Below, piece after piece: positions 502 to 16,674 of a DNA stretch of 64,000 bases. Source of the stretch: Chryseobacterium piscicola (lineage in GTDB: Bacteria > Bacteroidota > Bacteroidia > Flavobacteriales > Weeksellaceae); contig NZ_FTOJ01000004.1 in assembly GCF_900156685.1 (NCBI RefSeq), positions 1 to 64,000 on the forward strand. The letters run 5' to 3'. The notes under the pieces are model-generated. The model made no database searches and was not told the DNA's origin. It saw nothing but the letters and a program-made list of their open reading frames with translations. Positions within the stretch are counted from its first letter, which is position 1. Each line of letters begins with the position of its first letter. A program made the translations under genes and the position numbers.

Positions 502-1485
502 TTATTCTATAATCAGTTTTAAAGTAAATAACTTTCGGGTATGTACTTTCACAAAATAAACTCCTTTAGGTAAGTTTTCGTTCACTAAAGAGAATTTTTG
601 ATCATTCACGTTTTTGGTTTCATACAAAAGCTGGCCTGCAGCCGATAACAGCTGGATTTTCTCAATAGGATAATCACTCTTTATAAAGGTTGGTTGGCCT
701 GGTTTTGCAGGATTCGGATAGAGAATCACGTTTTTCTCGGTCTTGCTGTTGGCTTCATTGGTGCCCAAAGTTGCACCCACCACTTCAAAAGAAACTCTAT
801 TAGAAACTTCCGCATAAGAATCATTGGTAAACATTACCATGTAGTAGTTTCCGGTGGTGCTTGGCACACCATTTACGTTTCCGGTGATGGTTTTGTTGCC
901 TTGTGTTATACCGTCGAAATACGTGTAAGAAGTAAACTGGTCATTCGGAGTTTGCACGCTTTGAGGATAAATTCCCAGCCAGTCTTTGATGATGCCCGGA
1001 GAGTCTGTCCATGAAGCGGTAATGTTTTCTCCTAGAGTATACACTGGTTTGTTGATCCATAGATCGGTAACAATATCACCTACCTTGAAGAATGCTTTCT
1101 CTCCGATTTGTGTGTAGCCGTCTTCTAGAAGATAGGTTGCGTAATAATATCCTTTTGGCAATCCTGTAAAGTTTTTGGTTCCTGCAGCGGTGGTTACATA
1201 GCTCCATGTTGCGGAAGGGTTAGCAGTTCCGGGTACTTGGCCCATTTTGTAAATTCCGATCCAGTCGTTGGTTAGGTTCGGTCCGTTGGTGTAATTGATG
1301 ACTACCGTTCCCCCTACAGGATAAGAATCTGCTGTCGGCTGAAGAAGTACTTTTGGGCCTACATAGAAACTTTTTCTTCCTGCGATTTCTGTGTATCCGT
1401 TATTGGCAAAGAAACCTGCGAAATATTGTCCCTTGGTTGCCAATCCGGTATTGAAATTGGCTGTACCTGAAGTCTGTCCGTTGAG
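502..1485 (-). pseudogene. Detached C-terminal part of secreted metallophosphatase (repeat domains plus T9SS sorting domain)
   Basis: This reading frame is the same frame as the upstream phosphatase gene, separated from it only by a TAA at 1488-1486. It has no ATG near its start. The first possible initiator is a TTG at 1443, inside a conserved repeat domain, so independent expression is doubtful. It encodes the rest of a first DW(V/I)GIY-type repeat, two further repeats (DWIGIYKMG and DWLGIYPQS), and an approximately 75-residue T9SS type A sorting domain. That domain starts near ILYPNPAKPG and ends in KLFTLKLIIE. In an intact gene it would send the enzyme across the outer membrane. Most likely it is dead or read only by stop-codon readthrough. 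A sequencing error is the other explanation. Confidence 0.75.
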
Positions 1486-3255
1486 TTACTTGTATTGCTG
1501 AGATGTTGTTGTGGTGGGATTTTGCCCTTTTTTATAAATTCCTACCCAATCCTGCTGATTTCCTGGGCCGTCTGTATAGGTTGCCAGGATCTCTTCATTT
1601 TGAAGATATTCTGTTTTGTTTAAAACCAATTGAGGGTTAGAGACTACACTTCCTATAACTTGGAAAGATTTTACATCACTCCATTCGCTCCACTCAAGAT
1701 TTCGGTCTCTGTATCTTAGTTTTACGTAATAAACGCCGTTGGTAATAGTGTTGGCAGCGATGGTTGCTTTGGTAATATCTACACCAGCGTTAAGGTTTTT
1801 CGTTACATCAGGATTTCCTGTACCGTCTTTACCAAACCAGTTTTCGTAGTCTCGGTAAAATTCTTTATCAATAACAGAGAAGTCTGCTGTTTTACTGATG
1901 AGAAACTGTGTTGTGTTGAGGAGTTCTGTAGTGGTCGTGGTAAAGTTACTTCCGTTTATAGTTAAAGGTAAGGTAACGGGAGTTGTGAATACATTGGTTA
2001 CGGCTGGTTTTGTAGGTTTTGCTAAATTTTTATACCTGTGAAAACTATCAACAGTCACGCTGTTTTTCTTATTATAAATACCCCCGATTGAATAGCTTTC
2101 GATATCCATTTTGCCTGTGTTGACGTCTACTTCAATGATTTGATACGTCCAATCTGTTAAGGTTTTCTGTACATCGTCAAAATCCTGCTCATTAGACATT
2201 CCCCAATATTGATCCCATGCAGTTCCGCCAGAGATAATTTGGTAATTAGGAGAATTTTTGAGCTGACCTCTGTGGTACAAATGGTGGTGCGCACCAATGT
2301 GCATGATGTATTTGTCTGAGGCAGTCAACATTGGTACAGCGGTATTTCGCACCCATGTAGAAATGTCTCCCACATATTGCTCTGCCTGATAAGGTCTGTG
2401 GCTTAAAGAAATGATCCATTGTACAGTATTATCTGCAGCGGCAGCATTCATAATCTGTTGTAGCCATGTTTGCTGCGCAGATCCTGTGTGTTCAGAGCTT
2501 AAACTTACAAACAAAACATTTCCAGCTTGTTGAGCGTAGTAATTCTCATTTCCTGAGCTGATGTTTTTGTAGCTTAGTTCATCAATGAAGAAATGGGCAT
2601 AATAAGAGCTCATTCCTAATGTTCCGTATGTTTCGTGATTTCCTACCGTAGTTTGTATAGGAAGGTAAGGCGATAGTTTCTGATTTTTCTTAAAGTGAAC
2701 ATTTTCGTAATGATCAAGCGTTCCCACGTCTACTTGGTCGCCAACCATAAAAGTAAGGGCAATATTGTCTGAAGGATCATTGCTTGCGCCAAATCTTTCT
2801 TTGATTTTTTTGTACGCATGAAGGTTGAGCGAGTCATATCTCGGTTCATTCTTCAATTGATTATCTCCCATAATGAGAAATCTGATTTTTCCATCTGCTG
2901 TTACAGCTTGTCCTGGCAAAGGAAGTGTTCGGAAATTGTAAACAGAAGATTCGCTTGTGCCAGTTTTGGTTTTGTAGTAATACTTTGTGTTGGGTTGAAG
3001 ATTGGTAATTTTTGCGGTGTGATAATAATAGTTGTTGCTGTATCCCGTATCCGTGAAGATATTGGTAGTTCCGGTAACGGTAACATTGAGTTGGGTAGGC
3101 GAGGTTCCGTAATATACTGTGGTTTCGTTATCGGAGGATGTTTTCCAATTGATAATTATAGAGTTGGGAGTAGGATTCTGCAAGTAAGGAACTATGGTTT
3201 GCCCAAAGCACAAGCTTGTGAATAAGCAACATAGTAACAGAAAATAATGTTTCAT
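1486..3255 (-). CDS. Secreted metallophosphatase with purple-acid-phosphatase-like N-terminus, truncated by in-frame stop
   Basis: The 589-residue product starts with a clear signal peptide (MKHYFLLLCCLFTSLCFGQ). A fibronectin-like domain of the purple acid phosphatase N-terminal type follows at about 20-110. The calcineurin-like phosphoesterase core spans about 125-350. Its metal-binding motifs are all visible: GDNQ, GDQVD, GNHE, SHRP and GAHHH. The reading ends inside a beta-repeat (DWVGIYKKG) at SQQYK followed by TAA, and the same frame continues for 327 codons to a T9SS sorting domain at 502. The full-length protein would be about 917 residues. Aligned to the third repeat (YTYFDG against YK-stop-LNG), the stop replaces a Tyr, a single-base change from TAT or TAC. 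The truncated enzyme could still fold but would stay in the periplasm. Substrate unknown. Confidence 0.85.
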   Translation of the reverse strand: MKHYFLLLCCLFTSLCFGQTIVPYLQNPTPNSIIINWKTSSDNETTVYYGTSPTQLNVTVTGTTNIFTDTGYSNNYYYHTAKITNLQPNTKYYYKTKTGTSESSVYNFRTLPLPGQAVTADGKIRFLIMGDNQLKNEPRYDSLNLHAYKKIKERFGASNDPSDNIALTFMVGDQVDVGTLDHYENVHFKKNQKLSPYLPIQTTVGNHETYGTLGMSSYYAHFFIDELSYKNISSGNENYYAQQAGNVLFVSLSSEHTGSAQQTWLQQIMNAAAADNTVQWIISLSHRPYQAEQYVGDISTWVRNTAVPMLTASDKYIMHIGAHHHLYHRGQLKNSPNYQIISGGTAWDQYWGMSNEQDFDDVQKTLTDWTYQIIEVDVNTGKMDIESYSIGGIYNKKNSVTVDSFHRYKNLAKPTKPAVTNVFTTPVTLPLTINGSNFTTTTTELLNTTQFLISKTADFSVIDKEFYRDYENWFGKDGTGNPDVTKNLNAGVDITKATIAANTITNGVYYVKLRYRDRNLEWSEWSDVKSFQVIGSVVSNPQLVLNKTEYLQNEEILATYTDGPGNQQDWVGIYKKGQNPTTTTSQQYK

Positions 3256-3716: not shown

Positions 3717-3838
3717 AATTAACATAATGTTAGAATAAAATACTTACTTTTGCTGAAGTTAATTGTTTAACATAAATAATTATTGATAAAGTTTGTAAAA
3801 TTTTCGCTTTTAATAAATATGTTATTTTTTAGAAATTT
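3717..3838 (+). promoter_or_regulatory. Conserved promoter and leader of surface module 1
   Basis: The -7 box is TACTTTTG at 3745-3752, preceded by TTAACATAAT. A block of about 55 nt (3783-3838) starting TTGATAAAGTTTG follows. The same three elements occur in the same order upstream of module 2 (12509-12630). In this copy the block cannot be continuously coding into the gene, because a TGA interrupts that frame. Conservation therefore points to a promoter and 5' leader of about 115 nt rather than to protein. Confidence 0.65.
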
Positions 3839-3868
3839 ATGACAATTCAAGTTAAAACGCAAAATAAA

Positions 3869-4606
3869 ATGCGTTTTTTTGGCGTGCTCATCATTTCTCT
3901 TTTTTTACACATTCATTTGTATGGAGCGGTTACAAAAATTAATCATAAAGAAGTAGGTTTAGCTATCAATTGTAAGGGAGCAGAAGAGGTGCGTTCTTAT
4001 CCGGATAATGTAGAAAATACAATTGTATCAGATAGTATATATCAATCTTCAAATGTTTTAGCAGAAAACTCCGGAAAGCAATTTCATGAAGATCCTGCCA
4101 ATATTATTTCTACAAAAACTGTTTCCAAAGAGTCTTCAAATATTCAGGAAGAAGACCATAAAATTATTTTTATTTCTGCAGGAACTACAGTAGTGGGTTT
4201 GGATCAAGTCTATGAGGTGAAGATTGAAGCTGAAACAAGAAAACCTCAATCGAAAGAGGTTTCAAAAGTTTCTTTTTCAGAACAGACGAACGTAGCGCTA
4301 TCTGAGAAAAAAGCCAAAGTAAAACTGGCGCATTTAAGGAATAAAATTCAGGAAAAGCCAGATTATAATTTTTCAAGTTCTCCTTCCAGTGATTCTGGTA
4401 TTTCACAGAGATTAGGTAAAACGCAAACTGCTGTTGTAATATCCTATAATGTGTTACAGAAATACGCGCTTGCTTCAGTTTATGATAAAACGATTGTCAA
4501 AATTGAAAGCCAATTAAAAAAACAAAAATTCTATACCTCTCATTCTTATTTTCTTTTTAGAAGGTATACCTGTGCTTCATTGCGAGCACCGCCGAAGAAC
4601 TCCTAA
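3869..4606 (+). CDS. Exported protein of unknown function, surface module 1 (paralogue of 12661-13401)
   Basis: The 245-residue product starts with a signal peptide (MRFFGVLIISLFLHIHLYGA). I chose the ATG at 3869 rather than the in-frame ATG at 3839, because similarity to the paralogue becomes coding only from MRFFG, while upstream it is nucleotide-level leader. The two paralogues share the signal peptide, a VENTIV...YQS stretch, a central IFISAGTT(V/I)VGLD segment, an ESQL.KQKFYTS segment and a C-terminal SLR(A/G)PP. No known domain was recognised. It has no lipobox and no type A sorting domain. Being first in a conserved three-gene arrangement, it may assist export or anchoring of the large protein downstream, but that is inference. 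Confidence 0.8.
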   Translation: MRFFGVLIISLFLHIHLYGAVTKINHKEVGLAINCKGAEEVRSYPDNVENTIVSDSIYQSSNVLAENSGKQFHEDPANIISTKTVSKESSNIQEEDHKIIFISAGTTVVGLDQVYEVKIEAETRKPQSKEVSKVSFSEQTNVALSEKKAKVKLAHLRNKIQEKPDYNFSSSPSSDSGISQRLGKTQTAVVISYNVLQKYALASVYDKTIVKIESQLKKQKFYTSHSYFLFRRYTCASLRAPPKNS

Positions 4607-4845
4607 TGGCTTAATTCAGCAGTCGATTCTATGTAATAAAAAAGATTTCTTTTTTATTAATTTCTTTATTTTTTTCTGAAATGCTTACTATAATGATTGA
4701 TATTTTATTTAAAATATTGAATTGTTGTGTTTATTAAGTGTTTGATGGGTAATTAATATTCATCCGTTATTGACTGCGAAATTTGGGTGAATTCTGTTTA
4801 AGAACTCCCTTACCTACATTCTAATAATAATTTAATTTTATTCAC

Positions 4846-7800
4846 ATGATAGAAAAATCTATTCAGTTATTGCACAATGCAATGTCAATGATTTGGGGTT
4901 CCATCAATACTGAGAAATACAGTGTTTACCCAAGTCGTAATGAGCGCAGTGTAAATTACACTTCAACCTCAAAATTGCGAGCCGTTTTAGTAGCGACTTT
5001 AGTTTTGAGCAGTGTCTTTACATTCGCGCAAACCGTTATAGGTAGTTATACTACTTCTGGTACGCAAACATTTGTTGTACCGCCAGGTGTAACAAGCATT
5101 ACAACCCAAGTATGGGGTGGTGGTGGTCGCGGAGGCGATCGTACAGGATTAATTGGTCTTGGCACTGCCGGTGGTGGTGGTGGAGGCGGGGGAGCTTATT
5201 CCTTGCAAACCATTGCTGTAACACCGGGTCAGGTTCTAACTATAAACGTTGGAAATGGAAGTAATAGTGCTTCTGCAGGTGGTGATTCTTGGGTTTCTAC
5301 AAGCGCGGTCGTTGCAAACGCCGTTGTATTAGCTAAAGGAGGAAACTCTGTTGGTGGAAATAATACCAATGGTGCGTCTGGCGGTAGTGCAGCTGCCGGA
5401 ATAGGTAGCACAAAATTCAATGGAGGAAACGGATCAAATGCCGCTAGCAATAATGGTGGAGGTGGAGGTGCCTCTGCAGGAACTGCTGCAAACGGTACCA
5501 GTGCAGTAAATACGGCAACTGGAGCAGCAGCTCCTACAGGTGGTGGAAATGGTGGTAACGGTCAAACCAGTGGTTCTGGAAATGGAAGTAATGGAGCCTC
5601 TCCTGGAGGTGCGGGTGGTGGAGCGAGAAGTTTATGTATTGCTCTTTGTGGTAGTGGTAGTGGAGGTAATGGTGCTGCAGGGCAGGTAATTATTACTTGT
5701 ACCGATATTGGTACCCCGGTTTTTGCACTGGGTGCAACTTCTACGCGTTGTCAAGCTGCAGGTACCGTAAATTATACCGCATCTTCTACGAATACAACGA
5801 ACTTAACTTATGCTTTAGATGCTGCCAGTTTAGCAGCAGGAAATACGATTAATGCATCTACTGGCGCGGTGACATACGCTGCAGCTTGGAGTGGAACGAG
5901 TACAGTAACTGTAACAGCAGTAGGATGTGCTGGTCCTAAAACGGCTACTCATACTATAACGAATACAGCCAGTGCAGGTGTTCCTGTTTTTACATTAGGT
6001 GCTACATCTCAGCGTTGTGCTGGTGCGGGTACTGTTTCTTATGTTGCAACTTCTGCAAATTCTACGGGTATTGTTTATGCTTTAGATCCTGCCAGTTTAG
6101 CTGCAGGAAATACAATTAATACAAGCACAGGTCTTGTAACGTACACTGCTTCTTGGTCTGGAATTTCTACAATTACGGCAACCGCTTCTGGGTGTTTTAA
6201 TGTTTCTGCAACTCATCAAGCGGATTCAGGCAGTTTTTTTGTGAATGATGATGCTTATATTACCAACCAAGGACAGCCCATTACATTTAATGTTCTGGCT
6301 AATGATTTGTGTAATATCAATCCATCTATGGTTACAATTACACAACAACCTGTTGGAGGATTTGTGACTCTAGGAGCTAATGGACAAATGACTTATGTAT
6401 CGTTTGGTGCATTTCTTGGAACGGAGACCATAAAATACCAAGTATGTTCTAACGGACCAACGGTAACCTGTAAAATTGCTACAGTGACTATCAATGTTCT
6501 GGAGGTTCCTGATGATCCTTGTTTCTTAGCAAATAAAGAAAAAACATACTATTTGCCATTTCCTGAAAATGATGCACAACTTAAACAAAGTCTTTTAAGT
6601 GCAGCAAGTGCTAATTTACTTACTGCTAATGTGCGAAGTATTGTGAGTATTTCTGTGCCTTATCCTGGTACAAATTTAATTTATGATCAGTGGGAAGATG
6701 GATATGAAGCAGATATTAAAAATCCTGCTCAGGGTTCAACTCAAATTTGGGGTGATGGTATTATCTCAAATGGTGTTGCACCAGGATTCCCAACAGATGT
6801 TATTCCTGCTGGTGGATTCATCACATTAGATAATACTTTTCCTTGGAGTAGACCAACGACAACTCTTGCATTTGATGGTAAGGACAAAATATTTTCAACG
6901 GCAAATATTTCTGTTTCTAAAGTAAATGGTGATGCAGGTACTGTTGCTGGTCCTCCTATTACTCCGTTATTTAATGTTCAATCGGTGAAGACCAATGTAT
7001 CAGACATTACGCGATTTGGTAATTTCTTCGTATTGCCATTTGGTGAGAATGTTATAGATGGCCCGACTACAGCATTTAGATATACAGGTCTTTTTGTACG
7101 TGCAAAAGATAACGGAACGGTAGTTGAACTGGATTATGATGCTGATGGTGATTTTGATGTGACCTCACCAACACTAAATGAAGGTGAAGTATGGTTCTAT
7201 AACGGTGTAGGTTCTACGCCAGGAATTTTTATAGCTACATCACCACCAGCCGACGATGTGGATAATGCAACCGATATAAAAGCGGGAGCCAGAGTTAGTG
7301 CAAACAATCCTGTAGGTATTGATCTTGTATTTGGAGGAATTGATACTTATGGCACCCGTAATATTCCTGTGCTTCCGAGTCAGTTTTATGGGACTACCTA
7401 TTACTCGCCAGTTTATTCTACAAATGCGGCAGCACCGGCTCTTGCGTATTTTGTAAATCCAACCGGTAGCGCCATTACAATCAATTGGTCTAGGGCATCA
7501 GGAACACCGTTATCAGGTTCTTTCACTGTGCCTGCAAACAATGGTAGAGTAACTTTTAATTTAAATGTAGCAACAGGAACTAAGTTTACAAGTGCTGGTG
7601 GTGAATCTTATACCGCAGTAGTTATCATGGATGCAGATAATGCTGGTACTACATATGATTGGGCATTTAATATGATCCCCGAAAAAAGATTGTCTTCAGC
7701 AGCTTTGGTTGCTTGGGCACCAGGTAGTTCTGATGGAAGTGCAAATTATAACCCGGTTTGGGTAACGCCAAAAACAACGACAACAGTTTATGTAAAGTAT

Positions 7801-10800
7801 GATGGTAATGTTACTGCAGGACCTAATCAAAGTCCATGTGGTGGTTATTATGATGTCAGTTTCACAGTGAATGCTTTAGAATCTAGACAAATTAAAAATC
7901 CGGGTTCAAGTAATGACAATTCGGGTATGGCTGTGTATAATTGTAATGATGTTCCTATGGCTATGGTTTGGGGACAATCTTCAGAAACTACTACTCCAGG
8001 AGGTTCACCTGCGCTTGATGTAGGTTATACCATGGAACCAAAATGTTTTGCCAAAATTGTTTTTGCAGCAGATGATAAAGTAATTACCCCTCAGAATACA
8101 CCAATTACGATAAACGTAGCGGGTAATGATACGGGTTTCTTAGTGGTATTAAATCCTGCCAATAGTGTTGTTATTACACAACCAACTAATGGTACCATTG
8201 TAAAAAATCCTAGTGGAACCTATACTTATACACCAAATGCTGGGTTTACAGGTCAGGATTCTTTTACTTATAATATTTGTGGACAAGGTGCTGACAGCAG
8301 TATTTGTGATCTTGCTACCGTATTTATCAATATCCCATGTGCTATTGTTGTAGATGCTAATGTGATTTCGGGTACTGTATATAATGATGTAAATGGCAAC
8401 GGAACTCCAAATGCTGGGGAAGCAGGGGTGTCGGCAATTTCTGTTCAATTATATGATGATTTAAACAGTAACGGAGTAATAGATACACTTGAGCCGGTAC
8501 TTCAAACTCAATCAACTACTAGTGGTGCAAATGCTGGTACATTCCAGTTTAATTTGCCAAACAGTACTTATTTAGATCAGTTTAACACGAACGGTAGTGC
8601 TACAGGAAGCAATGGTACTACAACATGGGTAGCTCCTTGGTTAGAAATCGGTGAAGCAACTGGTTTTGGTCTTGGAAATATTCAGGTAATTGGAAATAAA
8701 TTGAGAATACAGGGGAATGGGTTAATCACTCAAATTGGTGCATCTCGTACCGCAAATTTATTAGGTGCAGGTCAAGCGGAGCTTACTTTTGATTTTGATA
8801 AATCTGCTTTCAATACTACTCCTAATGATTGGGTGGATGTTCAGGTTGCATCTTCGCCTTTAGGTCCTTGGGTTACCTTAGCTAGATACAGTGGTCTTCC
8901 AGCGGCTACCGGCAGTCAAACTTTTGCTATTCCTACCGCGCTTATTTCTGCAACAACTACAATCCGTTTTTTAGAATCTGATAATGCTGGATTTACTAAC
9001 ACGGAAAGAGTAGATTTTGATAATGTTAAAATACGCTATGTATTAGACAAAAAATACATCGTGAAGTTAGCCTCACCAATTGCAAACAGTTGGGTTCAAT
9101 CTTCAACTCCTGTAACTACAGCAGTGGGAATCAAAAATTTCTCAGATGGTGATTGTAGTACTAAGTTTGGTTTAGTAAAATCTGATGTAGTAATTACGAA
9201 AACAGTAAACAATCCGTTCCCAATTTTTGGCAGCAATGTTACTTTTACTTTAACTGCGAACAATGCGGGTCCAAGTGATGCCCCATCGGTTACCGTAAAT
9301 GATGCTCTGCCAACTGGGTATATGTTTGTAAGTGCTACACCAAGTGTTGGTACGTATACAGGTGGAGTTTGGACTATTGGTACTTTAGCGAATGGCGCTA
9401 CAGAAACATTAACAATCGTTGCGACCTTTAAAAATACTGGAAATTATACCAATACTGCTGTTATTTCAACAACAGGGAATGATCCTAATCTAACGAATAA
9501 TACCTCATCAGTTACTCCAATACCACAAATGGATTCCGATGGTGATGGTGTAGGAGATTTGGTGGATATAGATGATGATAATGATGGGATTTTAGATACA
9601 GATGAACAAACTTGTCTGTCTCCTATTTCAATAGGTGTAAATCCTAATCCTACCGCTTCAGAAATCTATGGTGGAACTACAGCCACCTATACAGAAGTGT
9701 TGGGCTCAGTGGCGCCAATTAGTTTTGGAGGTTACAATGGTTTTAATCCTTCTGGTTACCCTTCTAAATTAAAAATAGACTATTCAAAAACTTTAACAAA
9801 TTATGCTTTCAGAATTTCTGATTTAGATAATCTTGAAAAAGTAAGAGTTTTAGTTTATGATAAAAATGGTGTTTTAGTACCCAATATATTACCTTATATA
9901 ACTTATCAAGGCGCGGATGTATTAGCAAGTGCACAATCTAGCATGAGTGTATTAGTTGAATCTAATACCAATATTGGAGGAACTGGTAACTCGTTCAACG
10001 CTAATATTTATATTGATTTCAAATTACCTTTCGAGGTTTCAAGAATTGATTTCGATTTTTATGATAGAAGTAATGGTTCACCAGAATACTATTTCTTATC
10101 AGGCTGTGTTGTGAAAGACACCGATGGAGATACAATATCGGATTATCTAGATTTAGATTCAGATAATGACGGTTGCTTGGATGCAATAGAGGGTTCTGCT
10201 AATATTTCATTAAGTGAATTGGTAAGTTCTGGAGGTACGGTTGTAGTGGGTACAGGTTCCACCGCTTCTAACCAAAATCTATGTGAAAATGGAGCGTGTG
10301 TAAATGCGCAAGGTTTACCACAATTATCACCATTGATAAGTGGCTATAGCAATACTACCGGACAAGGCGTGGGTACTTCTGCTAATTCTAGTATTAAGAA
10401 TGCCCAATGTGCGAATGCATTTGGTTGTGACTCTAGAATGTATCTTTCTCAGGTAGATACTCTTTATGATGTAGACACTACATCTAACCCATTTACTTAT
10501 CCTTCGGTAGGTACATCTTCTGTGAACTACAACGCAATAGCAATTAATCCTTTAGATGGACGTTTGTACGGAATGCAGGTTTCTAATTCAAATAATGTTG
10601 TTGTAATCAATACAGATGGTAGTTCAATTAATCTAGGTCCTGTAACCAATCTTCCTACAGGTGTTACTTATAATGCAGGAGAGATTGATAACTTAGGGAA
10701 TTATTATGTAAAAGTAAACAATGAAAATCCACAACTCTATAAAATCAATCTCAATACATTAACAGCAACGTTAATAACATTAAATACCTCAATATATGTT

Positions 10801-11787
10801 CCAGATATTGCTTTTAATATAACAACTGGGTTGTTGTATGGCGTAAATGTTACAACCGGTCAATTAGTGTCTATTAATCCAGCTACTTCTGTTGTAACTC
10901 CAATTGGAATAACTCCAGGCTCTGCACTTTTTGGGGCGATGTTTGCCTCAAGTACTGGTGAAATTTATGGTGCGGAAAATGGAGGTGGTTTCTATCAGTT
11001 CAATCTTACGACTGGGCAAAGAGTTTTAATCTCCAATGCACCTGCAAGTTCAGGAAATGACGGTGCGCATTGCGTTACTGCGCCTATTGTATTCAGTGCA
11101 GATTTAGCAATTACCAAAACTGATGGTAAAATCAATTATTCATCAGGAACCACAAACACCTATACTGTGGTAGTAAGTAATAATGGTCCTTTTGGTGTGT
11201 TGGGAGCAACGGTTTCAGATCCGGTTCCAGCAGGTATTCCTGCAGGAAATGTGAGTTACTCAGTTCCTGTGGTAACAGGTGGTGCAACTACAAGTATTAC
11301 TTCTGCACAAACAGGAGCGTTAAATGATGTTGTTAATGTACCTGTTGGAGGAACCATTACATATACCATTACTATTGCAATTCCTATTTCGTATTCAGGA
11401 GACTTAGTGAATGTAGCTACGGTTACCTCACCAGCAAATTCTACAGATTCAGACTCTACAAATAATACAGCAACGGATACTGATACAGCAGCTGTATGTT
11501 ACAATAACCCAAATACTACGGGAACAGGAGTAGATACAAAACATGGTATTACTTTGTTACAACGTGCAGGGTCAAACAATGGTGGATGGCCAATGATAAG
11601 AAAATCGGCACACACTGTTTTAGAATCTAATACCAAAGGATTTGTTGTTTCTAGAGTGACGACTTTAGGTTTATCGGCTATTACCAATCCACAAGAAGGA
11701 ATGATGGTGTATGACACCGTAGCTGAATGTTTGAAAATTTTTGACGGAACAGTATGGAGTTGTTTTAATACTCCGGCGTGTCCATAA
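4846..11787 (+). CDS. Giant multidomain surface protein, surface module 1
   Basis: The 2313-residue product has an unusually long leader (about 62 residues, hydrophobic part near 47-60, ending TFAQ). After it come a glycine-rich segment (about 85-285) and two Ig-like repeats sharing P-V-F-x-LGAT and CxxAGTV (about 287-460). Next are cadherin-like domains with a VLANDLC-type motif (465-555 and 1075-1165). Between them is a large beta-rich region faintly like IgGFc-binding domains (555-1072). An SdrD B-like domain (SGTVYNDVNGNG, about 1170-1240) and two DUF11 domains (about 1446-1558 and 2086-2215) follow. Thrombospondin type 3 Ca-binding repeats (DSDGDGVGD, DSDNDGCLD) and a propeller-like DUF6923-type region (about 1864-2078) are also present. 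It ends in a Cys-containing module (LESNTKGFV...GMMVYDT...WSCFNTPACP) instead of a type A domain. Probably a cell-surface adhesin. The ligand and export signal are unknown. Confidence 0.85.
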   Translation: MIEKSIQLLHNAMSMIWGSINTEKYSVYPSRNERSVNYTSTSKLRAVLVATLVLSSVFTFAQTVIGSYTTSGTQTFVVPPGVTSITTQVWGGGGRGGDRTGLIGLGTAGGGGGGGGAYSLQTIAVTPGQVLTINVGNGSNSASAGGDSWVSTSAVVANAVVLAKGGNSVGGNNTNGASGGSAAAGIGSTKFNGGNGSNAASNNGGGGGASAGTAANGTSAVNTATGAAAPTGGGNGGNGQTSGSGNGSNGASPGGAGGGARSLCIALCGSGSGGNGAAGQVIITCTDIGTPVFALGATSTRCQAAGTVNYTASSTNTTNLTYALDAASLAAGNTINASTGAVTYAAAWSGTSTVTVTAVGCAGPKTATHTITNTASAGVPVFTLGATSQRCAGAGTVSYVATSANSTGIVYALDPASLAAGNTINTSTGLVTYTASWSGISTITATASGCFNVSATHQADSGSFFVNDDAYITNQGQPITFNVLANDLCNINPSMVTITQQPVGGFVTLGANGQMTYVSFGAFLGTETIKYQVCSNGPTVTCKIATVTINVLEVPDDPCFLANKEKTYYLPFPENDAQLKQSLLSAASANLLTANVRSIVSISVPYPGTNLIYDQWEDGYEADIKNPAQGSTQIWGDGIISNGVAPGFPTDVIPAGGFITLDNTFPWSRPTTTLAFDGKDKIFSTANISVSKVNGDAGTVAGPPITPLFNVQSVKTNVSDITRFGNFFVLPFGENVIDGPTTAFRYTGLFVRAKDNGTVVELDYDADGDFDVTSPTLNEGEVWFYNGVGSTPGIFIATSPPADDVDNATDIKAGARVSANNPVGIDLVFGGIDTYGTRNIPVLPSQFYGTTYYSPVYSTNAAAPALAYFVNPTGSAITINWSRASGTPLSGSFTVPANNGRVTFNLNVATGTKFTSAGGESYTAVVIMDADNAGTTYDWAFNMIPEKRLSSAALVAWAPGSSDGSANYNPVWVTPKTTTTVYVKYDGNVTAGPNQSPCGGYYDVSFTVNALESRQIKNPGSSNDNSGMAVYNCNDVPMAMVWGQSSETTTPGGSPALDVGYTMEPKCFAKIVFAADDKVITPQNTPITINVAGNDTGFLVVLNPANSVVITQPTNGTIVKNPSGTYTYTPNAGFTGQDSFTYNICGQGADSSICDLATVFINIPCAIVVDANVISGTVYNDVNGNGTPNAGEAGVSAISVQLYDDLNSNGVIDTLEPVLQTQSTTSGANAGTFQFNLPNSTYLDQFNTNGSATGSNGTTTWVAPWLEIGEATGFGLGNIQVIGNKLRIQGNGLITQIGASRTANLLGAGQAELTFDFDKSAFNTTPNDWVDVQVASSPLGPWVTLARYSGLPAATGSQTFAIPTALISATTTIRFLESDNAGFTNTERVDFDNVKIRYVLDKKYIVKLASPIANSWVQSSTPVTTAVGIKNFSDGDCSTKFGLVKSDVVITKTVNNPFPIFGSNVTFTLTANNAGPSDAPSVTVNDALPTGYMFVSATPSVGTYTGGVWTIGTLANGATETLTIVATFKNTGNYTNTAVISTTGNDPNLTNNTSSVTPIPQMDSDGDGVGDLVDIDDDNDGILDTDEQTCLSPISIGVNPNPTASEIYGGTTATYTEVLGSVAPISFGGYNGFNPSGYPSKLKIDYSKTLTNYAFRISDLDNLEKVRVLVYDKNGVLVPNILPYITYQGADVLASAQSSMSVLVESNTNIGGTGNSFNANIYIDFKLPFEVSRIDFDFYDRSNGSPEYYFLSGCVVKDTDGDTISDYLDLDSDNDGCLDAIEGSANISLSELVSSGGTVVVGTGSTASNQNLCENGACVNAQGLPQLSPLISGYSNTTGQGVGTSANSSIKNAQCANAFGCDSRMYLSQVDTLYDVDTTSNPFTYPSVGTSSVNYNAIAINPLDGRLYGMQVSNSNNVVVINTDGSSINLGPVTNLPTGVTYNAGEIDNLGNYYVKVNNENPQLYKINLNTLTATLITLNTSIYVPDIAFNITTGLLYGVNVTTGQLVSINPATSVVTPIGITPGSALFGAMFASSTGEIYGAENGGGFYQFNLTTGQRVLISNAPASSGNDGAHCVTAPIVFSADLAITKTDGKINYSSGTTNTYTVVVSNNGPFGVLGATVSDPVPAGIPAGNVSYSVPVVTGGATTSITSAQTGALNDVVNVPVGGTITYTITIAIPISYSGDLVNVATVTSPANSTDSDSTNNTATDTDTAAVCYNNPNTTGTGVDTKHGITLLQRAGSNNGGWPMIRKSAHTVLESNTKGFVVSRVTTLGLSAITNPQEGMMVYDTVAECLKIFDGTVWSCFNTPACP

Positions 11788-11800
11788 ATAAAAACAGATT

Positions 11801-11838
11801 GAAGGGGAGGGTATTTCCAAAAAGAAATACTTTCCTTC
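11801..11838 (+). promoter_or_regulatory. Intercistronic hairpin, module 1
   Basis: An imperfect inverted repeat lies between the giant gene and its small partner. The left arm 11801-11817 starts GAAGG and ends GTATTTC; the right arm 11824-11838 is GAAATACTTTCCTTC. No long T-run follows. It may act as a partial terminator or an mRNA-processing and stability element. Module 2 has a hairpin of different sequence at the same place. Confidence 0.55.
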
Positions 11839-11868
11839 TCAATTTTAATTTATAAAAATACTTTAAAA

Positions 11869-12414
11869 ATGAAAAGATTAATCATAAGTATATTTCTAGG
11901 AGCTGTTGCTCTGTGTAATGCGCAGGTAATCATAGGAGATGCTGTAGGAACAGCGAGTGTTAAAACCTCAGTTCTTTTAGAATTTGCAGCAGGTCAAAAC
12001 AAAGGTATCATATTACCATACGTAAGAACGTTGCCTTCTGGTACATCACTCACGGCAGGAACTATTTTACTAGATGCGAGTACAGCAACAGCATCCAGAG
12101 TGAAATATTATGCAGGAACTACAAAAGGATGGGTTGATTTAAGTGGTCAAAACGCAAACCTTACCACTGTATTAGCACAACAACCTGCTGGAGTAACTGA
12201 AAGTATTTCTAAGGCAATAATAGGTTCAGATACAAGTAGTGCAGATGGTGTTTTAATATTGGAAAGCATTACCAAAGCGATGGTTTTGCCTACGGTGGCA
12301 GACACGAATGATGTGCCAAGTCCGAGTCCGGGTATGATGGTTTACATCAACAAGGCAGGCGCAAAAAGATTAGCCGTTTTCAATGGCAGTAAATGGAGTT
12401 ATTGGAAACCGTAA
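11869..12414 (+). CDS. Small secreted partner protein, surface module 1
   Basis: The 181-residue product starts with a signal peptide (MKRLIISIFLGAVALCNAQ). The mature part reads as two tandem copies of one beta-rich module. Copy one has LLEFAAGQNKGIILPYVRT...GTILLD...KYYAGT..WVDLSG. Copy two has LILESITKAMVLPTVAD...PGMMVYI...LAVFNGSKWSYW. The second copy is clearly related to the last ~60 residues of the giant protein encoded 81 bp upstream. The module resembles the tail-fibre-like KG(L/F)(L/V)xxRMT...GMMVYDT segments common in Bacteroidetes surface proteins. A strong terminator follows, so it closes the module. Inferred role: an accessory subunit binding or capping the large protein through the shared domain. 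Confidence 0.8.
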   Translation: MKRLIISIFLGAVALCNAQVIIGDAVGTASVKTSVLLEFAAGQNKGIILPYVRTLPSGTSLTAGTILLDASTATASRVKYYAGTTKGWVDLSGQNANLTTVLAQQPAGVTESISKAIIGSDTSSADGVLILESITKAMVLPTVADTNDVPSPSPGMMVYINKAGAKRLAVFNGSKWSYWKP

Positions 12415-12426
12415 CAAAAACAAGAG

Positions 12427-12458
12427 AAAAGCCGAATCAATTTTGATTCGGCTTTTTT
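12427..12458 (+). terminator. Terminator of surface module 1
   Basis: A perfect stem AAAGCCGAATCA / TGATTCGGCTTT with a short loop is followed by a T-run, 13 bp after the stop codon at 12414. Confidence 0.85.
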
Positions 12459-12508
12459 GTTTTTAAGAAGTAGACTTAATGAATCCAAAATGTAATTTAT
12501 TAATAAAC

Positions 12509-12630
12509 TTAACATAATATCATAAAAAAATACTTAATTTTGCCACCATTATTTTTTTTTCAGGTATAAACCATTGATAAGGTTTGTAAAATTTTCGCTT
12601 TTAATAAAAATGTTATTTTTCAGAAATTTT
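12509..12630 (+). promoter_or_regulatory. Conserved promoter and leader of surface module 2
   Basis: TTAACATAAT at 12509-12518, the -7 box TAATTTTG at 12535-12542, and the leader block at 12573-12630 match module 1 in order and spacing. The leader block differs from that copy at only a few positions. Confidence 0.65.
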
Positions 12631-12660
12631 AAAACAGCTCATAGTAAAGCGCAAAATAAA

Positions 12661-13401
12661 ATGCGTTTTTTTGGCGTGCTCATCATTTCTTTTTTTTTAC
12701 ATATTCAATTGTTTGGAGCGGCTACAAAAATTAATCTTAAGAAAGAAAGTTTAGCGCTCATCAGTACGAAGGTTTCTATAGAATTGTATTCTTACCCAAA
12801 TAATGTAGAAAACACCATTGTAACAGATACTATATATCAATCTGCACATGTTTTAGCAGAAAACTCAGAGAAGCAATTTGATGAAAATCTAACCAACATT
12901 ATTTCTTCAGATGATATTTCCCAAGAGTCTCCAGATATTCAGGAAAAAGACAATAAAACGATTTTTATTTCGGCTGGAACAACAATAGTCGGTTTAGATA
13001 AAATCTACAAAGTAAAAATTGTTGTTGAAAAAAGAAAATCCCAACCAACAGAGTTTTCAAAAACTTCTTTTTTAGAACAAACTAACAAAACGTTATCTGA
13101 AAATAAAGCCGATAAAAAATTAGCGCTGTTAGTACAAAGGATTCAGGAAGAGGCAAAAAATAACTTTTTGGTTTCTTCCAGTGGTGATTCTGGGATTACA
13201 GTAAGTTCAGGTAAAACCAAAACGGCTATTCTAGTTTCTTCTAATATAGTACAAAATCATGCTCTTGCTTCAACTTATGATCAAACAATTCTTAAGATTG
13301 AAAGCCAATTACAAAAGCAAAAATTCTATACCTCACTTTCTTATTTGCAATTTGGCAAATTCAGAAGTTCTTCACTTCGGGGGCCACCATACGTTGCATA
13401 G
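12661..13401 (+). CDS. Exported protein of unknown function, surface module 2 (paralogue of 3869-4606)
   Basis: The 246-residue product starts with a signal peptide, MRFFGVLIISFFLHIQLFGA, nearly identical to its paralogue. The ATG at 12661 is preferred. In-frame codons run further upstream, to a TTG at 12574, but that stretch is the leader block shared with module 1, where the frame is broken. Shared segments are VENTIV.D.IYQS..VLAENS, FISAGTTIVGLDKIYKVKI and ESQLQKQKFYTSLSYLQFGKF, with the tail SSLRGPP. No catalytic motif or known domain was recognised. Similarity is highest in the signal peptide and these islands and lower between them, which suggests divergence after duplication. Confidence 0.8.
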   Translation: MRFFGVLIISFFLHIQLFGAATKINLKKESLALISTKVSIELYSYPNNVENTIVTDTIYQSAHVLAENSEKQFDENLTNIISSDDISQESPDIQEKDNKTIFISAGTTIVGLDKIYKVKIVVEKRKSQPTEFSKTSFLEQTNKTLSENKADKKLALLVQRIQEEAKNNFLVSSSGDSGITVSSGKTKTAILVSSNIVQNHALASTYDQTILKIESQLQKQKFYTSLSYLQFGKFRSSSLRGPPYVA

Positions 13402-13656
13402 CTTTTCAATGTTTTATCTCGTAATTGTCTAAAGCCATTACAATTTTACAATTCAGTTTGTAATATAATCGTACCCCTTCTATTGCGAGGGAAAAAACTT
13501 TCAAATTAAAAACATATAATAAAAACCCTAGAAAATTATGCTATTTTGGTAATTATAACGATTTTTTTTATGGTTCTTTTGTTGAAGCGCTAGATAACGA
13601 CAAATCCAAATTTTTTAGATGACATACAGAATAATAAAAACTGACAAATTAAATTA

Positions 13657-15966
13657 ATGAAAAATAAAAAAATAACAAAAACTTACTCATTTATCCTGAA
13701 GCTTACATTTTTGGCTTGCTTCATATTAGGATTAAGTCAATATCAAGCGCAATGTAGTGTTGATTATTTTGGTTTTTTTGGTGATACACCAACCAATACT
13801 CCTAATGCCACAGCTCAAAATGGAATAACTGGCGTTACTGCATCTGCAATGACGGGAGGACCAGGAATTACGTTAAATAATGTTACAGAAAGCGGAAGTA
13901 CAGGTAGTTCTTCTGTTTTTCAGATGCAAAATTTAGGTTCGGCTAATTTTGCTGCAGCTGTAACCAATAATGATTATATGTTTACCACAATTACGGTGCC
14001 TGCTAATTATAATAGCGTAAGATTACAAGCTGCTCGTATGAAAAATATCGGTGGATTGGCTTCAGGTCGTGGTAATGCGCAATGGGCTATACAGGTTTTT
14101 GATGTAACAGCCAGTGCTTCAACCACAATCTTTCAAGGTGTAACTATTAATAATGCGGCAACTGTAACAGGCACTGCTACGACGAATTTTGATATGTTAC
14201 CTGGAAGAACATATCAAATTCGTTATTTTATTTACAATCTAAATACACCAGCTACTACTACAAGGAGTTATGATAATCCTGTTTTAACTTTTAATGCATT
14301 ACCTGTTTTATCTAGTACAACAGCCACTTTTTGTCCAGGGACAAGCTTTAACTTAAATTCTTTAGTTACAAATACTAATGTATCTACTGCTAATACTACT
14401 TTACAATGGTATACCAATGCTGCTTTAACAACATTGGTTGGTAATCCTAGTGCTGTAGGAGCAGGAACTTATTATGCTTCTTATAGAGATAACACAAACA
14501 ATTGTAATAACCCAGCTACAGGTCCTGTAACAATAACTGAGTCCACCGCAGGGTGTCCCGATGCTGATGGTGATGGAGTTATTGATACTTTAGACCTAGA
14601 TGATGATAACGATGGAATTTTGGACTGTGTTGAACAAGGGTTAGATAAACCAATAAATCAAATATTTGAATTAAATGGAAACGCTTCACAAATCAGCGCC
14701 TCAGAAGTTCAACTTACCTCTGCTGTAAATAACCAAGGTGGGCAAATGTGGTCTTATGGTAAAGTTGATTTCACGAAAAATTTCCGTATTTCTTTTGATG
14801 CATTCTTAGGGAATAATGATGTTGGAGCAGATGGTATAGCTATAGTATTTCATAACGATCCAGCTGGCATTAATGCTACAGGTGCAAATGGTGATGGAAT
14901 CGGTGCTAGAGGTATACAAAACGGTATTGTTTTAGAATTAGATACATATACAAATGCTTTTGACCCAGGTTCTCCTTCTGGTCCAGATCATGGTCAAATC
15001 TGGCGTTCTTCTGATCAATCTGCAATAACTACTGCGATAAGTTTGCCAGATTTAGAAAATGGAATTTGGCAACCAGTGCTTGTTAATTGGGATGCTTCTT
15101 CACAAACATTATCGTACTCTGTAAATGGCACAGCTGCTGGTACTTATACTGGAAACGTTGTAACTAACTTTTTTGGTGGAGCAAATAAAGTCTATTTTGG
15201 ATTTACCGCTTCTACGGGTGGTTTAAATAACGACCAAAGAGTTAGATTCTCATCTTTATGTGCGCTACCAATAGAAATAGATACAGACAATGATGGAATA
15301 CCTAATCATTTAGACACCGATAGTGATGGTGATACTTGCCCGGATGCTGTAGAAGGTTCAGAAAATGTTTCGATAGAGCAGGTTTGGTCTTTGAATTTGC
15401 CAATTGCAGACGCGAACTATGCTAATAGAGGAAAGATAAAAGTTATTTATGATGGGATAACAACCAATACACAACCTAATATTGTAAGCCAATCTGCATC
15501 TGCTTTAGGGGTGCCACAATTGGTAAACAATGCAGGGAATAACTTACATTCTGTTACTAACCCTTCAAATTTAGCTGGTTTTGCAGATAACACAGATGTA
15601 CCGGGACCTACTACAGCAGACATTGGCCAAGGAGCTGGTTCTTCTACCAATGCAGCAGTAAATGCTTGTATTTGTTACAATGATCCCAATACCACCACGG
15701 CAGGCGCAGATACCAAACACGGAATCACGTTATTGAGAAGAGCGGGTGCAGCACCTCAACCCAATAACTGGCCTATGGTAAGAAAATCTGCTTTCACAGC
15801 ATTAGAATCCAATACGAAAGGTTTTGTGATTACCAGAATGACTACCGCAGAGATCAATGCACTTACCGGTCAAAGTGGGATGATGGTTTACGATACCGAT
15901 TTGAAATGTTTAAAATTATTTAACGGGACTGCATGGAGCTGTTTCAATACACCAACCTGTCCTTAA
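13657..15966 (+). CDS. Surface lectin-like multidomain protein, surface module 2
   Basis: The 769-residue product has an export signal in about the first 32 residues (ending SQYQAQ), then a beta-rich region and an Ig-like domain (to about 300). A thrombospondin type 3 repeat (DADGDGVID...DDDNDGILDC) comes next. The domain at about 330-545 has features of L-type (legume-like) lectins: GGQMWS, FDAFLGNNDVGADGIAIVFH, GIVLELDTY, a DHGQIW segment and VNWDASSQTLSYSVNG. A second TSP3 repeat (DTDNDGIPNHLDTDSDGD) precedes the C-terminal module CYNDPNTT...TKHGITLLRRAG...ESNTKGFVITRMTT...GMMVYDT...WSCFNTPTCP. That terminal ~100 residues is closely similar to the end of the giant protein of module 1. Probably a secreted carbohydrate-binding surface protein. 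It lacks a type A sorting domain. Confidence 0.85.
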   Translation: MKNKKITKTYSFILKLTFLACFILGLSQYQAQCSVDYFGFFGDTPTNTPNATAQNGITGVTASAMTGGPGITLNNVTESGSTGSSSVFQMQNLGSANFAAAVTNNDYMFTTITVPANYNSVRLQAARMKNIGGLASGRGNAQWAIQVFDVTASASTTIFQGVTINNAATVTGTATTNFDMLPGRTYQIRYFIYNLNTPATTTRSYDNPVLTFNALPVLSSTTATFCPGTSFNLNSLVTNTNVSTANTTLQWYTNAALTTLVGNPSAVGAGTYYASYRDNTNNCNNPATGPVTITESTAGCPDADGDGVIDTLDLDDDNDGILDCVEQGLDKPINQIFELNGNASQISASEVQLTSAVNNQGGQMWSYGKVDFTKNFRISFDAFLGNNDVGADGIAIVFHNDPAGINATGANGDGIGARGIQNGIVLELDTYTNAFDPGSPSGPDHGQIWRSSDQSAITTAISLPDLENGIWQPVLVNWDASSQTLSYSVNGTAAGTYTGNVVTNFFGGANKVYFGFTASTGGLNNDQRVRFSSLCALPIEIDTDNDGIPNHLDTDSDGDTCPDAVEGSENVSIEQVWSLNLPIADANYANRGKIKVIYDGITTNTQPNIVSQSASALGVPQLVNNAGNNLHSVTNPSNLAGFADNTDVPGPTTADIGQGAGSSTNAAVNACICYNDPNTTTAGADTKHGITLLRRAGAAPQPNNWPMVRKSAFTALESNTKGFVITRMTTAEINALTGQSGMMVYDTDLKCLKLFNGTAWSCFNTPTCP

Positions 15967-15975
15967 TCTAAACGC

Positions 15976-16026
15976 AAAACCGGTCGGCTGATATACACAT
16001 CTTTATATAAACCGATCCGGAGTTTT
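15976..16026 (+). promoter_or_regulatory. Intercistronic hairpin, module 2
   Basis: The arms CCGGTCGG (15980-15987) and CCGATCCGG (16012-16020) pair with one bulge, extended by AAAA/TTTT. The loop is about 24 nt. It sits between the lectin gene and its small partner, the position of the module 1 hairpin, with unrelated sequence. Confidence 0.5.
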
Positions 16027-16047
16027 ATAATTTAAAATTTAAATAAA

Positions 16048-16617
16048 ATGAAAAAAGTAATATTCACCCTATTGATAGCAAGTTTTTCTTTTGCAAATGC
16101 GCAGGTCATTCTAGGTGATGCAGTGGGTACTGCAGCTAATAAAACATCGGTTCTTCTGGATTTTGCTGCAAATCAAAACAAGGGTATTATAGTTCCCTAT
16201 GTTAGAACCTTACCTACGGGAAATGCGTTGGTAGGAGGTTCCATTATTTTAGATGCCACTACCGCAACAGCAGCAAGAATGAAGTATTATAACGAAACTG
16301 TTTGGGTAGACTTGAGTGGTCAAAATGCTAATGTAACCACAGCGTTGGCCAATCAACCAACAGGAATAACAGAAGCTGCGGAAGCCAGAGCAATCATTGG
16401 CACGGTACCAGACCCTATCCCAGGTACATTTCCTGAAGGGGCACTGGTTTTAAACAGTACCACCAAAGCGATGGTATTACCAACTGTTGCAGATGTACAA
16501 GATATTCTAAGTCCTTCACCGGGCATGATGGTTTATGTGGCAGGTGTATCGCCTACTTTCTATAAGCGTCTGGCTGTATTTAACGGAAGCAAATGGAGCT
16601 TCTGGAAACCGGAATAA
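16048..16617 (+). CDS. Small secreted partner protein, surface module 2
   Basis: The 189-residue product is a close paralogue of the protein at 11869-12414. It has a signal peptide (MKKVIFTLLIASFSFANAQ), then V-I-L-GDAVGTAANKTSVLL and two tandem copies of the same beta-rich module (NKGIIVPYVRTLPTG...; STTKAMVLPTVAD...GMMVY...LAVFNGSKWSFW). It is larger than its paralogue by an insert near residue 115 (VPDPIPGTFPEG). It lies 81 bp downstream of the lectin gene, the same spacing as in module 1, and is followed by a strong terminator. Function unknown. The conserved pairing with a large protein that carries the same terminal module argues for a physical partnership. Confidence 0.8.
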   Translation: MKKVIFTLLIASFSFANAQVILGDAVGTAANKTSVLLDFAANQNKGIIVPYVRTLPTGNALVGGSIILDATTATAARMKYYNETVWVDLSGQNANVTTALANQPTGITEAAEARAIIGTVPDPIPGTFPEGALVLNSTTKAMVLPTVADVQDILSPSPGMMVYVAGVSPTFYKRLAVFNGSKWSFWKPE

Positions 16618-16635: not shown

Positions 16636-16674
16636 AAACCATCCCGAAATTTATTTTTGGGATGGTTTTTTTTG
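16636..16674 (+). terminator. Terminator of surface module 2
   Basis: A perfect 10-bp stem AAACCATCCC (16636-16645) / GGGATGGTTT (16659-16668) is followed by eight T residues. Its T-run overlaps the -33 element of the rpoB promoter. Confidence 0.85.

Follow-up and report, generated by a model that had tools for sequence, protein, structure and literature searches.

Candidate arrest leaders upstream of a two-gene surface-protein cassette in Chryseobacterium piscicola and its family

Two tandem units at the start of a contig

The window analysed here, the first 64,000 nucleotides of contig NZ_FTOJ01000004.1 of Chryseobacterium piscicola (Weeksellaceae; assembly GCF_900156685.1), contains two adjacent units, A and B, in which a leader open reading frame (ORF), a gene for a large surface protein and a gene for a small secreted partner follow one another in identical order on the forward strand. 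The leader of unit A (3869-4606, with an alternative ATG at 3839) encodes 245 residues with a signal-sequence-like N-terminus, and is followed by genes for a large protein of 2313 amino acids (4846-11787) and a small one of 181 (11869-12414). In unit B, a leader of 246 residues (12661-13401, its frame being open from 12574) precedes genes for proteins of 769 (13657-15966) and 189 amino acids (16048-16617). Three residues before the stop codon the leaders carry a short proline motif, RAPP in unit A (codons at 4583-4594) and RGPP in unit B (13378-13389), and we treat them as candidate arrest peptides, which by stalling the ribosome may control the two genes that follow. The large and small proteins both look exported, to judge from their sequences.

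The leaders of the two units are 61% identical, the small proteins 65%, and the last ~110 amino acids of the large proteins, a family-specific C-terminal domain (11455-11784 in unit A, 15634-15963 in unit B), also 65%, values that are far above chance. The gap between large and small gene measures 81 bp in both units and again in extra units on two other contigs (C28 and C4), and the leader is separated from the large gene by 239 bp in unit A and 255 bp in unit B. Ahead of the leaders ~170 bp are kept, including an element TAnnTTTG (3745-3752 and 12535-12542, forward strand) that is common to the paralogues and that we take to be the Bacteroidota -7 box. The heads of the large proteins differ: Pfam places Gly_rich_2, Big_9/cadherin-like, two DUF11 and DUF6923 domains in unit A and an L-type lectin domain in unit B. 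The original prediction, made from the DNA letters of the window, had described this tandem arrangement with its order and spacing, the common C-terminus, the differing heads and a shared promoter region, all of which our analysis bears out. It had also taken the terminator to be shared; each unit does end with an intrinsic terminator, a hairpin followed by a T-run (12425-12458 and 16636-16668), but these are alike in kind and differ in sequence.

Two units are present as predicted, but this count stands only as a minimum. The window is the start of contig C8 in a genome of 3.45 Mb assembled into 28 contigs, and further three-gene units, with the small gene cut, were found on C28 (4305 bp) and C4 (4260 bp), the two contigs of stretches L095 and L096, both of which break at identical small-gene sites, equivalent to window positions 16280 and 16524. 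These breaks probably reflect the collapse of a repeat in assembly, and they fit at least four units in tandem that the assembler left unresolved. In the window, rpoB comes after unit B (17014 onward); since the array has probably collapsed in assembly, the unit truly adjoining rpoB is uncertain. Contig C6 carries large and small pairs at 7-10 kb, 13-16 kb and 77-80 kb. A leader is present at six of the seven home-genome cassettes, the one without being that at 77-80 kb of C6.

Large and small genes as a conserved cassette

Profile searches for the small protein and for the large C-terminus (E <= 0.001 for the domain) were run across 148 genomes of the family, and gene order was scored in two sets of loci that overlap in genomes and are not independent: a biased set of 41 stretches, comprising the window and 40 others fetched through leader, domain or small-protein matches (L095-L134), and 76 loci chosen through the small protein alone, in which the pair count is still biased towards pairs. 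The small protein was found in 107 of the 148 genomes and the C-terminal domain in 112. In the 41 stretches a small gene lies directly 3' of 51 of the 53 domain-ended genes, on the same strand and at gaps of -31 to 124 bp; in the 76 loci a small gene follows the large gene in 84 of 91 cases, and a large gene stands directly 5' of the small gene in 84 of 89. One genome (G030) holds nine such pairs on a single contig. Across 24 complete triplets, median identity was 56% for the C-terminal domain and 61% for the small protein, 24% for the leader, and 16% for the large heads over up to 490 residues before the domain. These results support a conserved two-gene cassette with variable heads and a common C-terminal end, and suggest that the large protein pairs with the small one. 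The original prediction, which had proposed a common end and accessory set carrying varied heads, holds for the large and small proteins, but not for the 245-aa leader as an accessory: by sequence its family was recognised in only 11 of the 148 genomes, several of these matches being weak. Searches of Pfam, NCBIfam and PHROGs returned no convincing family for the leader, the small protein or the common C-terminus (the best PHROGs match, at E 0.003, was to a family of unknown function), and a sequence search for solved relatives gave none (best E 0.3); the cassette is thus without a family in the libraries searched.

The common end combines a family-specific part containing conserved Cys with a last ~55 residues that also recur elsewhere in the phylum, in different families: a search of 247 phylum genomes with the C-terminal domain gave matches in 37, the window's family included, and outside the family the listed matches cover mainly those ~55 residues. 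An AlphaFold2 model of the large C-terminus is confident only at about residues 70-110 of 118. Compared by VIA, this part matched the phage protein Mtd with Z of 5.7-6.2 and a root-mean-square deviation of 1.7-1.8 over 43 residues; Foldseek gave Mtd chains a probability of 0.96-0.98 but E values of 0.2-0.4, and the Pfam profile Mtd_N (PF18454) matched at 14.5 bits, below its cut-off of 26.3. Other matches of the model were tailspike 3 of phage CBA120, a streptococcal phage hyaluronidase and the trimerization domains of collagen XV/XVIII; all of these, like Mtd, are trimers. The model of the small protein (pLDDT 76.8) has a similar unit at its end, and matched the baseplate of phage JBD30 (VIA Z 4.0) and collagen XV/XVIII (Z 2.3-2.8), with unrelated SH2 chains scoring alike beside them; Foldseek found no match for this model at E <= 0.001 in PDB or viral models. 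In unit B the predicted trimerization-like units lie at 15823-15951 in the large gene (model residues 72-114) and at 16471-16614 in the small gene (model residues 142-189).

Fold scores are by themselves no proof of homology. The last ~45 residues resemble the Mtd N-terminal domain, CBA120 tailspike 3 and collagen XV/XVIII in fold (VIA Z ~3.4-6.2), whereas their position is different: here the unit is C-terminal in bacterial adhesins and follows a family-specific segment that contains Cys. The best-supported reading of these models is that the ends of the large and small proteins oligomerize and probably form trimers. The role of anchor that was originally predicted for the common end remains putative; the fold matches point to a trimerization unit.

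We also considered how the cassette proteins may reach the surface. Neither large protein has a type A C-terminal sorting domain of the type IX secretion system (T9SS) in Pfam (PF18962, Por_Secre_tail), as against 46 matches genome-wide, and neither has a type B match (PF13585/TIGR04131) in Pfam or NCBIfam; an NCBIfam scan of 52 C-termini at E <= 0.1, which would bear on a ChiA-like type C domain only if the library includes a model of one, gave nothing except five scattered single-member matches, and no PorP/SprF family was among the Pfam matches of 55 small proteins. The missing sorting domains would fit a cassette that is not a T9SS client, its proteins taking another route or staying in the periplasm, but the distribution of the cassette argues for the T9SS. 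SprA_N occurs in 138 of the 148 genomes; among the ten negatives two have GldM (G096, G107), one has a partial GldM (G079) and seven, from two genera, are GldM-negative as well (G022, G023, G045, G046, G062, G074 and G084). The C-terminal domain is absent from all seven T9SS-negative genomes and present in 112 of the 141 others (Fisher 3e-5), and the small protein is likewise found in none of the seven. A genome from the genus of five of the seven (G093; an assembly of 390 contigs with 5% contamination) has SprA, GldM, the domain and the small protein. Since the matches listed outside the family cover mainly the last ~55 residues, this linkage is testable inside the family only. We infer, with the support of this distribution, that the cassette proteins are exported by the T9SS, and regard a different route as unlikely, if not remotely so.

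The cassette recalls the type B pair SprB/SprF (PMC9143113 and PMC12618676, each in part) in its large adhesin with a C-terminal domain, its cognate partner gene directly downstream and its probable dependence on the T9SS. It differs in that its C-terminus has no type B match and that its partner is a secreted protein of ~180 amino acids without a PorP/SprF match.

Several observations concern the surroundings of the cassettes. They often lie between the ribosomal protein cluster (rplK-A-J-L) and rpoB: rplA stands before and rpoB after the cassette in ten of the 76 loci (L185, L186, L192-L194, L198, L199, L224, L242 and L244), and one of the two genes does so in four more. The closest relatives of the window's leaders and small proteins come from another genus (G134), not from the 19 sampled genomes of the same genus, and transfer between genera would be a possible explanation. 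At 502-3255 on the minus strand, the window holds a purple-acid-phosphatase-like metallophosphoesterase and then an ORF of 313 aa that carries a type A sorting domain for the T9SS, which together may be a single interrupted gene.

Leaders ending in R-x-P-P

Leader-position ORFs have a median identity of 24%, as compared with 11% for shuffled sequences, and R-A-P-P, R-G-P-P or R-P-P-P stands a few residues ahead of their stop codon. The 41 stretches hold 486 ORFs of 100 aa or longer. Of these, 28 contain R[AGP]PP, which lies within the last 20 residues in 27 and 26 residues from the end in one; the remaining ORFs, amounting to 180,921 residues, contain none, where 1.7 would be expected. A hydrophobic 15-mer (mean >= 1.8) near the N-terminus was present in all 28, the signal being judged by hydropathy only. 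In the 76 loci the motif was found in 39 of 1018 ORFs, each time at the C-terminus of an ORF of 100-300 aa, and a hydrophobic N-terminal segment in 36 of these 39 versus 144 of 466 other size-matched ORFs. Wherever R.PP occurs near the C-terminus, x is P (36 times), A (16) or G (16), redundancy included, and never another residue. Signal and motif are separated by 145-222 residues, and a short IxVxxGAxVxG-like stretch behind the signal sequence is common to many leaders. A test without the motif, using a hidden Markov model (HMM) of the leaders, is circular because the profile was trained on motif-bearing ORFs; of its three motif-less matches, two were short ORFs, maybe broken leaders, and one was a small protein. 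At one locus (L114:11665-12230), a 117-aa leader-like ORF without the motif and a 71-aa fragment of the C-terminal domain lie between two small genes, possibly as the remnant of a second unit.

The leaders are associated with large genes. In the 76 loci the gene nearest upstream is a leader for 24 of 78 large genes, for 9 of 463 other genes (Fisher 3e-15) and for only 1 of 88 small genes; in the biased set of 41 stretches, 22 of the 53 large genes have one. A large cassette gene lies within the next three same-strand genes for 32 of the 39 leaders, while among the other seven, four stand farther up a same-strand run that reaches a cassette (L189, L225, L253, L259), two precede TonB receptors identified by Pfam (L206, L231) and one lies where its contig ends (L187). 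Part of the cassette family carries the leader as an extra element. The original prediction had proposed to count how often all three families occur together in this order: the large and small genes do so in 84 of 91 cases, but the leader is nearest upstream in only 24 of 78, and we regard the interpretation built on a three-gene module as partly supported.

It could be argued that the first gene instead encodes an accessory protein which is exported and joins the large and small proteins in a surface assembly, given its export signal and its position ahead of both, and dN/dS (the ratio of nonsynonymous to synonymous change) below 1 in five close leader homologues (0.46-0.85) indicates some constraint on the protein sequence. 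The leader is, however, far more divergent than its neighbours, does not adjoin most cassettes (54 of 78) and ends in a tetrapeptide that is absent from the other ORFs of those stretches; we consider the accessory role very improbable. A three-component structural complex was set aside as the leading explanation because gene 1 is neither conserved nor constant.

Small secretory proteins with a C-terminal RAPP or RGPP have been described at the head of functionally diverse operons, and in ApdA and ApdP the Arg is irreplaceable while at x a change from Ala to Gly is fully and Pro, Ser or Asp partly permissive (PMC12992588, in part). A survey of the home genome with the DNA pattern for R-[AGPR]-P-P gave 46 matches, compared with 176 for the reversed pattern, a rough control, which agrees with published evidence that RAPP-like motifs are avoided. 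Motifs within 10 residues of a stop were found at six cassettes, two in the window, one each on C28 and C4 and two on C6, one of the six having a 276-aa ORF between leader and large gene. A seventh lies in a 131-aa upstream ORF (uORF) with CxxC and RGPP (L179:2629-3024, equivalent to G000:C8:191629-192024) before a 793-aa TonB receptor; it has no DUF2946 match and resembles the published TonB-related class of RAPP/RGPP uORFs. The remaining matches of the pattern are deeper inside ORFs, or without R[AGP]PP in an ORF of at least 60 aa. Similar ORFs of 118 aa precede the TonB receptors at L206 and L231. A Y2_Tnp transposase ORF or fragment (L177:3185-3598, minus strand) has RGPP 13 residues before its stop, and the same 11-base match occurs on C15 and C26 (L168, L176), where no ORF of at least 60 aa contains the motif.

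The tetrapeptide might be kept for some reason other than arrest, for instance if a secreted peptide used its C-terminus as a ligand or for its processing, and residues conserved upstream of the motif in the closest leader subfamily (FYTSLSYLQF) would agree with this. Yet the residues found at x are only those that fully or partly allow arrest, the position of the motif, the signal, the size and the upstream location fit the published class, and the lone further leader of the home genome stands before a TonB receptor, a class already published as lying downstream of RAPP/RGPP uORFs, which makes such a reason quite unlikely. By its features, the leader is best read as a probable member of the known RAPP class in a new setting. 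With RAPP-type peptides (ApdA, ApdP and the RQH family; PMC10987492 and PMC12992588, each in part) it shares the form of a small secretory uORF, the C-terminal R-A/G-P-P, the lack of overall similarity among members and the location upstream of the gene that would be regulated. Unlike them, the leaders precede surface adhesins and not sec/yidC, TonB or copper genes, mostly end in RPPP and in many cases have the IxVxxGAxVxG-like stretch. Uorfs of sec/yidC have been covered before, including RAPP-like uORFs upstream of secA in Bacteroidales (PMC10987492, in part), and the motif class as such is therefore not new to the phylum. In the part of PMC12992588 drawn on here, the downstream analysis took in RAPP and RGPP only and left out downstream genes annotated as unknown, limits that may explain why these cassettes went unreported.

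Possible control by nascent-chain arrest

We propose, as a reading we hold to be rather probable, that the leader gates a cassette for a trimeric surface adhesin through translational arrest under CruR-like control. The product of gene 1 would be a short-lived regulatory leader whose signal sequence is engaged by the Sec translocon and whose C-terminal R-[A/G/P]-P-P would halt translation at the last codons. Whether the downstream genes are expressed would then depend on the halted ribosome or on its release, most likely as in CruR, where a stalled ribosome keeps Rho off and the operon stays on (PMC9426467, in part). On this model the ribosome would keep Rho away from a C-rich stretch where the leader ends and so allow transcription into the large and small genes, and a chain pulled free by export, or by something bound to the exported part of the leader, would turn the cassette down. 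Genes 2 and 3 would be the output. Gene 2 would supply a large modular adhesin whose head varies and whose C-terminal domain is specific to the family, and gene 3 its small secreted partner; the two proteins would each end in a phage-fibre-type trimerization unit, probably form trimers or heterotrimers and be carried over the outer membrane by the T9SS.

The leaders resemble CruR (DUF2946, Bordetella; PMC9426467, in part) as secretory uORFs with a terminal RAPP, a C-rich stretch around the uORF end and a considerable distance to the outer-surface gene that follows (239 and 255 bp here, 162 bp for CruR); they differ in that neither window leader matches DUF2946 and that a role for Rho is suggested by composition only. 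C exceeds G in the final 75 nt of the leaders together with the next ~225 nt, in a pooled comparison of the 225 nt after the leader stop with those of other ORFs with a hydrophobic N-terminus (C/G chi-square 8e-6), and in the 150 nt after the stop of 31 of the 39 leaders. As a signal for Rho utilization (rut), the coding-strand excess of C over G was rejected as largely compositional and kept merely as a hint. Rfam gave no match at gathering scores.

Alternatively, the leader could be a classical Sec monitor like SecM or VemP, in which poor export prolongs arrest and expression rises as the start of the next gene is unmasked, without Rho. Spacers of 145-222 residues between signal and motif resemble the long, variable spacers of Sec monitors (PMC10987492, in part) and would suit this mechanism; no conserved masking hairpin was found, however, and the output would be a client of export and not export machinery, and we estimate that a Sec monitor of this kind has about one chance in a few of being correct. 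With modest confidence we rank the CruR-like Rho mechanism first and the SecM-like one second.

Several points weigh against the CruR-like proposal as a whole. Stalling is something we infer from the features of the leaders, and the induction of an adhesin by blocked export has no clear rationale. In unit A, G outnumbers C over the 150 nt that follow the leader stop, no conserved hairpin or terminator follows the leaders (z of -2.2 in unit A and +0.4 in unit B), and the third codon positions of complete leaders show no unusual skew, so that most of the C excess of the coding strand is attributable to amino-acid composition. Among the leaders, the commonest motif is RPPP, which is only partly permissive in ApdA/ApdP, while Ser and Asp, also partly permissive there, never occur at x; 3 of the 39 have no clear hydrophobic segment, two of these being cut at the locus edge, and for 54 of 78 large genes the nearest upstream neighbour is not an R[AGP]PP ORF. 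On the side of the output, the fold scores range from low to middling, outside the matched unit the C-terminal model is poor (pLDDT 66.8), 7 of the 112 domain-positive genomes have only weak matches (best E > 1e-10) that may reflect a phylum-wide motif, and the T9SS-negative genomes, falling in two genera only, represent about two independent events.

A wider proposal, which we put forward tentatively and hold to be doubtful, is that a dedicated class of Weeksellaceae arrest leaders, mostly ending in RPPP, gates tandem arrays of trimeric phage-fibre-like adhesins; that part of the nascent leader which is exported would sense how envelope export stands (Sec/T9SS or the adhesin's own partner) and set output via Rho, in what would be the first arrest-peptide control of a T9SS-type surface system. 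Arrest peptides have so far been known as monitors of Sec/YidC and of metal systems, and dozens of them ahead of Bacteroidota adhesin cassettes would extend nascent-chain control to the display of adhesins. A C-terminal domain with a cognate small partner, lying outside the type A and type B signals, is moreover a candidate for a further route of export or assembly. Taken together, reading these genes as a cassette would assign a role to numerous proteins of the Chryseobacterium group that lack annotation.

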